Source: Vallitaleaceae bacterium (GTDB lineage: Bacteria; Bacillota; Clostridia; Lachnospirales; Vallitaleaceae). Taken from it: a DNA stretch of 64,000 nucleotides. Made by a program: the position numbers and the translations under genes. Where the stretch lies: the NCBI GenBank assembly GCA_028277605.1, contig JANQFZ010000013.1:1-64000 (forward strand), read 5' to 3'. Shown one piece after another: positions 29,225 to 31,798 of the stretch. The number at the start of each line of letters is the position of its first letter. Within the stretch, counting starts at the first letter, position 1. The notes below the pieces were generated by a model. It was given only the letters and a program-made list of their open reading frames with translations. It was not told the origin of the DNA and ran no database searches.

Positions 29225-29611
29225 TTAATTAAATATTTGATATTGACTTAATTTATCCAATAGTTCTGTAATCACTTGATTGAAGGATATAATTCCATTT
29301 TGTAATCCTTGAGTAAAAAACATATTTTTTTTGAAGGTCATCATATTAACAACTAAACCTAGTATACCTGTACATATCAAGCTGTTTGCCAACTTCATAG
29401 CAAAAGCATTCGTCGTTTTATGATGAATTATTCTTTCTGAGTGTTGTACAGAAACCATAATTCTATCTGATAAATTGCTACTTGTTTCTATGAGTGGATG
29501 AGCATTGAGGAGCGCTTGTAGTTCTTCATCAACATTAACCGTTTGTTTTAGGTCACTTGTTTTCCTGTTTTTTCTATTAAGTATTTTCATTTTAAACTCT
29601 TTGCACTTCAA
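29225..29611 (-). CDS. Putative anti-sigma factor or sigma-operon membrane protein
   Basis: Directly after the sigma gene, this protein of about 129 residues has a charged, soluble N-terminal half and one hydrophobic helix (about 80-100), the usual layout of an ECF anti-sigma factor. I do not see a zinc-binding HxxxCxxC motif, so the call depends on position and topology. The start is uncertain: the TTG at 29611 has GGAGGTG 6 bases upstream and lies inside the sigma gene, giving a 20-base overlap. ATG starts at 29626 and 29590 are alternatives. Confidence 0.5.
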   Translation of the reverse strand: MKCKEFKMKILNRKNRKTSDLKQTVNVDEELQALLNAHPLIETSSNLSDRIMVSVQHSERIIHHKTTNAFAMKLANSLICTGILGLVVNMMTFKKNMFFTQGLQNGIISFNQVITELLDKLSQYQIFN

Positions 29612-30167
29612 TTGCTTCACCTCCATAACCTTCTTTTATCAGCTTATCTTTCAATTGTTTTCTAGCTCTATATAGTCTAGTTTCAATGGTTTTAACTGGA
29701 AGATCCAGTATGTAAGAAATTTCTTTATAAGTTAAGTGATTAAAATGATAAAGAATAATGACTGCTTTGTACTTATCTTTTAAGCTTTTAACAGCAAGAT
29801 GAACCATCTGTTGTTTTTCTTTATAAACAACTATATCCTCAACGCATGCATTGTCTTTAACTTCTTTAACTTTTTGGTCAGTAAAACTCAGCTTATCAAA
29901 AAATCTGCGTTTGGACTTTCTCTTCCAATCCAGACATGTGTTCATGGCTATTTTATATATCCATGTTGACAGCTTACATTGATACTTAAAGTCAGGAAGA
30001 TATTGATAAATCTTAATAAAAATATCTTGACACAAATCCTCTGCATCATTATAGTTATTGGTAAACTTATAAGCCATCGTTAGGATTCGGGATTGGTTTT
30101 CGATGACTAATTCTTGAAAGGCTTTTTGGTTATGCTGCCTTAACTGCCTTATATTTTCCTCTTGCAA
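29592..30167 (-). CDS. ECF-type RNA polymerase sigma factor
   Basis: At 191 residues this is a standard group 4 sigma-70. Region 2 is recognisable in RILTMAYKFTNNYNDAEDLCQDIFIKIY and TWIYKIAMNTCLDWKR; region 4 in YKAVIILYHFNHLTYKEISYILD and PVKTIETRLYRARKQLK. It resembles SigM/SigW-like stress sigma factors of Bacillota. The start is a TTG; AGGACGGTGAT precedes it. It is second in a four-gene operon (solenoid protein, sigma, putative anti-sigma, zinc-finger membrane protein). Confidence 0.92.
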   Translation of the reverse strand: MQEENIRQLRQHNQKAFQELVIENQSRILTMAYKFTNNYNDAEDLCQDIFIKIYQYLPDFKYQCKLSTWIYKIAMNTCLDWKRKSKRRFFDKLSFTDQKVKEVKDNACVEDIVVYKEKQQMVHLAVKSLKDKYKAVIILYHFNHLTYKEISYILDLPVKTIETRLYRARKQLKDKLIKEGYGGEAIEVQRV

Positions 30168-30197: not shown

Positions 30198-31640
30198 TTA
30201 TCTTATATTAATATTTCCATGCGTGGCAGCTATAGTAATTGTATTTTCGCTCTCTCCAATTGTTTGATTAACTGTATTAGAATTATTGTCTTCGTTAGCT
30301 AATTGATTCGGATAGTCGTTTCCATCATATCGTTCATTTACCTTTAAATTCATATCTGTTTTTATTGTGCCATAAGATGATGATAAGTCAAATAAACCCT
30401 GTTGTTGATTTGGAACTTTTAAGGTGACATCTCCATAGCTGCTATCTATTTCTACACTTTTTAATTCAGTATCTGGGTTATAAAGTTCAATATTTCCATG
30501 CTCTGAAACAATATCTATATCCCCTTGACTATCTTCAATAAATAAATCTCCATGTCTGCTTCTCAATTTAATATTCGATTGAATGTTTTTTACTCTGATG
30601 ACTTCATAGCTGTTTTTAATATCGGTTTTACCATTGACACCATCTACCTGTATCCCAGAATACTCAGCAGAAATGGTTAAATCTTTTTTTACTTCAGAAC
30701 CTTCTATTGTACCATGCATTTGATTAACCGTTACTGTGCCGGCGATATTATCAAATGAAGTTAGTTCATATTCATTCTTGAGTTCTAAATCACTTTTTAT
30801 ATCCTTAGCTTCAATTTTACCATGTTTATTTGTGATAACCGTAGAACCTTTAACATCTATAACCTCTACATCACCATAGGTATTCTCAATCGAACACTCA
30901 CTACCAACATGTTCTACTTTAGTGTTACCATGCCTATTATTTATGGCTATATACTTATCTATATTTCTTGCATGTATATCACCATATTTATTATTGAGTT
31001 CAACTTCTAAGTGCTTAGGCATCTTAATAATAAGTTGTACGGATGTACTTAATTCAACAGTATTTAATCCTCTGTAATTCGCTGATATATTTAAGTGCTC
31101 CCCTGATCCTCTACTTAATTTTATGATTTGATTTGCTATATCTGATGCATATGATTCGTCTTCAAATGTTCGTACTTTAATAACTGCCTCTATGAGTATA
31201 TCTTCTGCTTCTATGGTTTGAATATCTATATCTCCTTGAGAGTTATCAATCACAAGCTTCTGTAGATTGTTTGCATCTTCTGTATAATGCTCTGTAAATT
31301 CATAGACATTTTTAATATCAAACACTCTTTCAAACCATTGGTTTTCATAATTACCATCCACAAAGTATGTAAAACCTGTTATAGAAAAAGAAGAACCATA
31401 AATAATAAGCAATAAAATAATAGACCAACCACTTATTTTTACTTCTAATGCTTTTTCTGTCTTTTTATAAAACCATTCATAAAAAATGAATTCAACACCT
31501 AGTAATATAATACTTGAAGCAAACATAATACGTAAAGTTTCAAATATATCTAATGGTGTATAGATATTGATAAGATATATAACCCCTATAGCTATTAGGG
31601 TTATAGCTAAGGTCAAAGAACCTATTTTTTTCTTTTTCAT
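30198..31640 (-). CDS. Membrane-anchored DUF4097-type beta-solenoid protein
   Basis: Three hydrophobic helices (about 7-27, 36-56, 70-92) anchor a large C-terminal domain outside or at the membrane. That domain (about 128-480) is a right-handed-helix-like repeat of the DUF4097/LiaF-associated type. From residue 219 to 381 a Tyr or His before Gly (or Glu/Ser) recurs every 18 residues exactly. Proteins of this class accompany envelope-stress regulators (for example PspC/LiaF systems), but the molecular function is not established. It is the first gene of the ECF sigma operon (31-base gap), so it may be the sensor or the main stress product. AAGGAGG precedes the ATG. Confidence 0.8.
   Translation of the reverse strand: MKKKKIGSLTLAITLIAIGVIYLINIYTPLDIFETLRIMFASSIILLGVEFIFYEWFYKKTEKALEVKISGWSIILLLIIYGSSFSITGFTYFVDGNYENQWFERVFDIKNVYEFTEHYTEDANNLQKLVIDNSQGDIDIQTIEAEDILIEAVIKVRTFEDESYASDIANQIIKLSRGSGEHLNISANYRGLNTVELSTSVQLIIKMPKHLEVELNNKYGDIHARNIDKYIAINNRHGNTKVEHVGSECSIENTYGDVEVIDVKGSTVITNKHGKIEAKDIKSDLELKNEYELTSFDNIAGTVTVNQMHGTIEGSEVKKDLTISAEYSGIQVDGVNGKTDIKNSYEVIRVKNIQSNIKLRSRHGDLFIEDSQGDIDIVSEHGNIELYNPDTELKSVEIDSSYGDVTLKVPNQQQGLFDLSSSYGTIKTDMNLKVNERYDGNDYPNQLANEDNNSNTVNQTIGESENTITIAATHGNINIR
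30471..31010 (-). repeat. Ten tandem 18-codon repeats in the solenoid gene
   Basis: Counting residues from the ATG at 31640, the marker residues are Y219, H237, Y255, H273, Y291, H309, Y327, Y345, H363 and H381: ten positions with a perfect spacing of 18. The preceding residue is often Lys, Arg, Thr or Glu and the following one usually Gly. Two looser rungs follow at Y402 and Y423 (spacing 21). The nucleotide sequences of the units are diverged, so this is an old protein-level repeat. Confidence 0.85.
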
Positions 31641-31771
31641 GATACCCTCCTTAAGTATGCACTACTTTGTTGTACTTATATGACCTGTCGTCTATTAGTT
31701 ACTAATGCTTAGTAATATTTTATACCTCCTTATTCTTCTTGATACGTATCATTTTTAGTTTCATTTATTTA

Positions 31772-31798
31772 GACGCATTAACTCTCAATAACCCTTCA
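31772..31798 (-). promoter_or_regulatory. Possible ECF-type promoter of the sigma operon
   Basis: On the minus strand TGAAGG (31793-31798) is followed after 17 bases by CGTC (31772-31775), close to the TGAAAC-N16-CGT pattern known for Bacillota ECF sigma factors. The match is partial. The rest of 31641-31943 holds a 10-bp palindrome GATACGTATC (31741-31750) and no gene that I trust. Confidence 0.3.

Follow-up and report, generated by a model that had tools for sequence, protein, structure and literature searches.

An alternating aromatic and Asn/His ladder in a predicted extracytoplasmic Toastrack protein encoded with an ECF sigma factor in Vallitaleaceae

In the genome of a Vallitaleaceae bacterium, a membrane protein with regularly spaced Tyr and His residues is encoded beside an ECF sigma factor. 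The locus raises two questions: what this ladder of residues does, and how the protein is related to the sigma factor. The window analyzed was a stretch of 64,000 nucleotides (contig JANQFZ010000013.1), and the coordinates of its features are given in Table 1.

Table 1. Features of the operon in the window, and the second promoter copy found in more distant carriers
Feature	Position	Strand	Basis
Predicted ECF promoter, TGAAGGG-N16-CGTCTA	31770..31798	minus	Conservation; 0 expected in shuffles
Toastrack (DUF4097) membrane protein, 480 aa	30198..31640	minus	PF13349 match, AlphaFold model, Foldseek
Three N-terminal TM helices (residues 8-90)	31371..31619	minus	Hydropathy and charge, 7 orthologues
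Ten rungs with 18-aa spacing, alternating ladder (residues 219-381)	30498..30986	minus	
ECF sigma factor, 191 aa	29592..30167	minus	Sigma70_r2 3e-16, Sigma70_r4_2 4e-14
Single-TM protein, 133 aa, overlaps sigma gene	29225..29626	minus	Position and zf-HC2 in syntenic counterparts
B-box-like zinc finger and TM protein, 203 aa	28601..29212	minus	Profile match and operon conservation
Second exact promoter copy and PspC/LiaI-LiaF-like TM gene	L151:168-599; L152:1648-2088	minus; plus	

Residues 127-480 of the protein matched the Toastrack DUF4097 family (PF13349; Pfam, E = 4.3e-15; 56.2 bits vs. a gathering cut-off of 22.9). The AlphaFold model of the protein contained two strands per 18 residues (pLDDT 95-98 over residues 201-380), in agreement with the beta-helix of one rung per 18 residues proposed in the initial annotation. 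With this model, the best Foldseek fold match in the PDB was 4QRK, followed by 3JX8, 3LYC, 3PET and 4OPW (DUF4097/DUF2807-type); the matches to 4QRK and 4OPW had E-values of 3.5e-6 and 2.6e-4 and a probability of 1.0, with low TM-scores (0.21-0.44). Sequence searches of the PDB with the protein or the family profile gave nothing convincing, and NikR, a weak match (E = 0.05), was dismissed. The Toastrack fold is a right-handed beta-helix of two sheets (PMC11237479), and on the predicted structure the 480-aa protein is such a Toastrack/DUF4097 beta-helix, placed C-terminal to three TM helices. No LiaF-TM or LiaI-LiaF-like domain was matched in the protein by Pfam, and it has three TM helices vs. 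the four of LiaI-LiaF-TM. As the charges in 7 orthologues favor an N-in/C-out orientation (positive-inside rule), the Toastrack domain is predicted to be extracytoplasmic, and the claim that the ladder lies outside the membrane anchor is borne out as a prediction. Toastrack domains have been predicted to be intracellular in published work (PMC11237479), and the topology of the ladder-bearing subclass may differ from that prediction.

The ladder consists of ten residues (Y219, H237, Y255, H273, Y291, H309, Y327, Y345, H363 and H381) at steps of exactly 18. Our recount agreed with the positions given initially, where the location of the gene on the minus strand had gone unstated. Beyond residue 381 the ladder continues at Y402 and Y423 by 21-residue steps, and then at H474; the exact 18-residue period is confined to rungs 219-381. 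Ten Tyr/His residues in one 18-residue phase were matched in 0 of 20,000 domain shuffles, whichever period between 10 and 30 was taken (highest count 6). The order of Tyr and His within the window protein alone was weakly non-random (residue changed at 7 of 9 steps, P = 0.17; an alternating run of 7 rungs anywhere, P = 0.05). The claimed alternation was present but weak in this protein, and became significant over the homologues.

Homologues were drawn from relatives, the order, the class and the phylum, and the ladder residue was located by a register score blind to residue identity, except that V/I/L/P were penalized. A search of close-relative contigs with the single ladder protein gave no match; the corresponding profile search returned 2 Vallitalea MAG contigs only, which appear to be the L003 and L006 loci. 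Alternation statistics were calculated for the 45 proteins in which six or more steps were exactly 18 residues long. The same residue occurred two rungs apart in 69.5% of cases (0.695) vs. 20.7% (0.207) one rung apart (z about 13 vs. shuffles), a contrast that may be enriched by the alternating members contained in the profile that selected the homologues, and with a z value inflated by sequence relatedness. Phases -1 and +2, beside the ladder, alternated weakly (z about 4, similarly inflated), and the remaining phases little or not at all. Aligning homologues, the check suggested in the initial annotation, thus gave a non-random ladder position and a conserved alternation.

The ladder position is the residue before a G-D turn, and at this position F/Y alternates with N/H, as in FNFNFNFNFN (L036, L037), FHFHFHFHY (L048), YNYNYNYNYN (L007) and NNYNYNYNYN (L004). 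In a tree built on the N-terminal part, with the ladder left out, alternation extended across the whole of a 28-protein clade (100/100), inside which F and Y, and N and H, swap; twice, in L003 and L008, the ladder has become all-His. In a second group (f146, f155, f198), F alternates with Y or H. A sample of proteins selected by PF13349 alone had mostly uniform ladders of Ser, Thr or Asn on coils of about 19 residues, and the alternation is therefore taken, from these comparisons, to mark a Toastrack subclass in which the conserved contrast is a bulky aromatic vs. polar Asn/His, rather than Tyr vs. His. The uniform small polar residue (Ser) before the G-D turn in the sampled mainstream members is absent from the window protein; it is a trait of common DUF4097 members and stands outside the family definition. 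Other alternations were observed at the ladder position (Lys/His, aliphatic/Asn, Tyr/Cys and Tyr/Ser; L090, L057, L061, L027), and their occurrence suggests that alternation arose more than once. A further uniform variant was seen in L066, L068, L070 and L072, where 18-residue coils carry ladders, seven to nine rungs long, that are all Tyr or nearly so.

Tandem repeats commonly grow by block duplication. Growth by blocks would copy an alternation along with the rest of the repeat, and the pattern could then be left over from a recent duplication of two-coil units of 36 residues, and lack structural meaning. However, in most other phases residues 36 apart were no more alike than residues 18 apart, no DNA-level repeat is any longer present in the gene, and residues swap within the classes F/Y and N/H. 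The alternation also persists among sequences less than 45% identical (0.314 vs. 0.00 +/- 0.044). The relic reading is largely refuted by these results and is considered very improbable.

The side of the solenoid on which the ladder lies was assessed from strand parity. Phases -6, -4, +3, +5 and +8 are hydrophobic and phases -5, -3 and -1 polar, and as these set the parity, we infer that the ladder residue (phase 0) points inward, on the side of the hydrophobic core. It is the last residue of strand 1 and adjoins an Asn-rich position at -2. The initial annotation had set the ladder along one face of the beta-helix; strand parity favors the inner side over an outer face. It had also suggested that the ladder could respond to pH or metal and feed the ECF sigma factor, a surface-sensor reading with which the ten regular Tyr/His positions and the predicted location outside the membrane are compatible, as are the homologues with ladders wholly or almost wholly of His (L003, L008) or with F alternating with H (L038, L048, L093). 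Asn, however, replaces 5 of the 6 ladder His residues in L004, and takes this place across many families that retain the same sigma-linked operon. Asn, unlike His, has no titratable side chain, and by strand parity the residue points inward. A pH- or metal-responsive ladder is disfavored because of this replacement in orthologues of the same operon, and is held to be improbable.

A packing role fits the ladder better. It would serve as a corner packing device at the end of strand 1, beside the tight G-D turn, where the F/Y ring on one coil would cover part of the neighboring coil, which bears the smaller, hydrogen-bonding N/H, and the packing unit of the solenoid would then be two coils (36 residues). 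Lys, His and Glu occur at the ladder position in some homologues (L090, KHKHKHK; L057, with E); these residues suit a partly exposed corner and seem to count against packing. As all-Tyr and all-His ladders exist, alternation is not obligatory.

The main rival to packing is a ladder facing outward at the edge of the solenoid, as a binding strip with a two-coil spacing of about 9.6 A for a repetitive ligand; candidates are a peptidoglycan glycan, a teichoic acid or an antimicrobial lipopeptide oligomer. Strips that bind glycans typically carry aromatic rings, and the predicted extracytoplasmic location and the envelope-stress context would also suit a strip. Phases -1 and +2, which lie at the turn, change with rung type: at phase -1, Ser is the commonest residue where the rung is aromatic and Lys where it is N/H (p = 7e-8). 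This response of the neighboring phases speaks for packing as well. Against a strip, parity groups the ladder residue with the core, the rings alternate with Asn/His, charge is not conserved and the ligand is purely hypothetical; this reading is regarded as unlikely. In the usual account of beta-solenoids, a ladder is a stack of one kind of residue (Asn, Ser, aromatic), and no description of an alternating ladder in beta-helices or solenoids was found in the open-access literature searched. If the two-coil ladder is real, it would be a new packing rule (or a ligand register) for beta-solenoids, and its conservation would give a simple solenoid design rule and a sequence mark for the Toastrack subclass.

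Compared with known Toastrack proteins (DUF4097/DUF2807/DUF2154; PF13349; 4QRK, 4OPW, 3JX8), the window protein shares the Pfam match and the beta-helix fold, and with those described in PMC11237479 it shares a domain C-terminal to TM helices and a linkage to a transcription regulator. It differs by three TM helices with predicted C-out topology and by 18-residue coils with an alternating aromatic/N-H ladder, where mainstream members have coils of about 19 residues and a uniform Ser/Thr/Asn ladder.

The relation to the sigma factor was examined through the operon. The initial report of an ECF sigma gene in the same operon was confirmed by Pfam, with sigma regions 2 and 4 only, as in the ECF class. 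This gene and the overlapping downstream single-TM gene resemble a known arrangement, an ECF sigma factor with a zf-HC2 membrane anti-sigma factor. Syntenic counterparts of the 133-aa protein in f45 genomes (L047, L051, L058) matched zf-HC2 above cut-off and share an IM...SLIAAG-type segment with it, whereas the window protein matched no library model and lacks the zf-HC2 HxxxCxxC motif and the zinc ligands. It is probably a reduced anti-sigma factor, from which the zinc-binding domain of its counterparts has apparently been lost; its structure model was poor (pLDDT 60) and was set aside. Vallitalea-type genomes keep the order Toastrack, ECF sigma, TM protein of about 115-145 aa and B-box/TM protein, and the same four-gene operon occurs with altered order in other families of the class. 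In many families the gene for the B-box/TM protein remains part of the operon, at times with the genes rearranged. The four genes lie together, in relatives as well, and are preceded by a single conserved promoter of predicted ECF type. A link between Toastrack operons and sigma factors has been reported in general terms (PMC11237479).

The motif TGAAGGG-N16-CGTCTA was found upstream of the Toastrack gene in all close orthologues. The exact motif occurred exactly once per genome in 7 of 7 carriers, always before the Toastrack gene, and was found in 0 of 16 genomes of the same family without the operon and in 0 of 4 other genomes of the order. One-mismatch sites were near the level of a reversed-pattern control and were not counted as targets. 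The motif appears to be self-specific in close carriers, and the operon appears to be switched on by its own ECF sigma factor. Other carriers in the class (f45, f76, G664, G410) had no exact promoter and may use a variant of it. No paper on the motif was found in a literature search (open-access coverage). By the promoter evidence, the ladder protein would be primarily a product of the sigma factor, and feedback on the sigma factor is plausible. The pattern of one promoter per genome constitutes a testable ECF regulon, and would tie Toastrack and PspC output to a sigma factor, not to a two-component system.

An autoregulated, Psp/Lia-like envelope-stress operon with the Toastrack protein as main product, and the ladder as a packing device, is proposed with moderate confidence. 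Envelope stress would free the sigma factor, which would then transcribe mainly its own operon. Large amounts of the Toastrack beta-helix would accumulate outside the membrane and serve there as a scaffold or a shield, and its domain may feed back on the sigma/anti-sigma pair, as the LiaX C-terminal domain reportedly does on LiaFSR. Points against this model are that the window's genome has one exact promoter only, with its PspC genes lacking it (a relaxed search before them gave chance-level matches), that the third gene has no zinc ligands, no library match and a poor structure model, and that published work predicts an intracellular Toastrack domain (PMC11237479). We put at about even the chance that the protein represents a Toastrack subclass with a 36-residue period at essentially one position, in which an aromatic/Asn-His ladder is kept by selection across several families of one class, with the protein as the dedicated product of a self-specific ECF sigma factor.

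LiaG of Bacillus, a DUF4097 protein of the lia operon (NCBIfam NF049997), was matched partially, over two stretches and at 32.9 bits vs. an equivalog cut-off of 285, which was not reached; the operon also differs. LiaX is a DUF4097 protein. In Enterococcus, the LiaR targets are LiaX and LiaY (PspC domain), and LiaFSR is reportedly kept in check by the LiaX C-terminal domain (PMC11601895). The window system differs from LiaXYZ in having an ECF sigma/anti-sigma pair in place of the two-component system and a TM-anchored Toastrack domain, and an N-terminal domain of the LiaX type was not seen in the window protein. LiaFSR acts chiefly on two targets, a protein with a regulatory C-terminal domain and a PspC protein. 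A similar pairing is suggested by G650 and G731, more distant carriers of family f65, where two exact promoter copies each were identified, one before the Toastrack operon and the second before a PspC gene with LiaI/LiaF-like TM segments.
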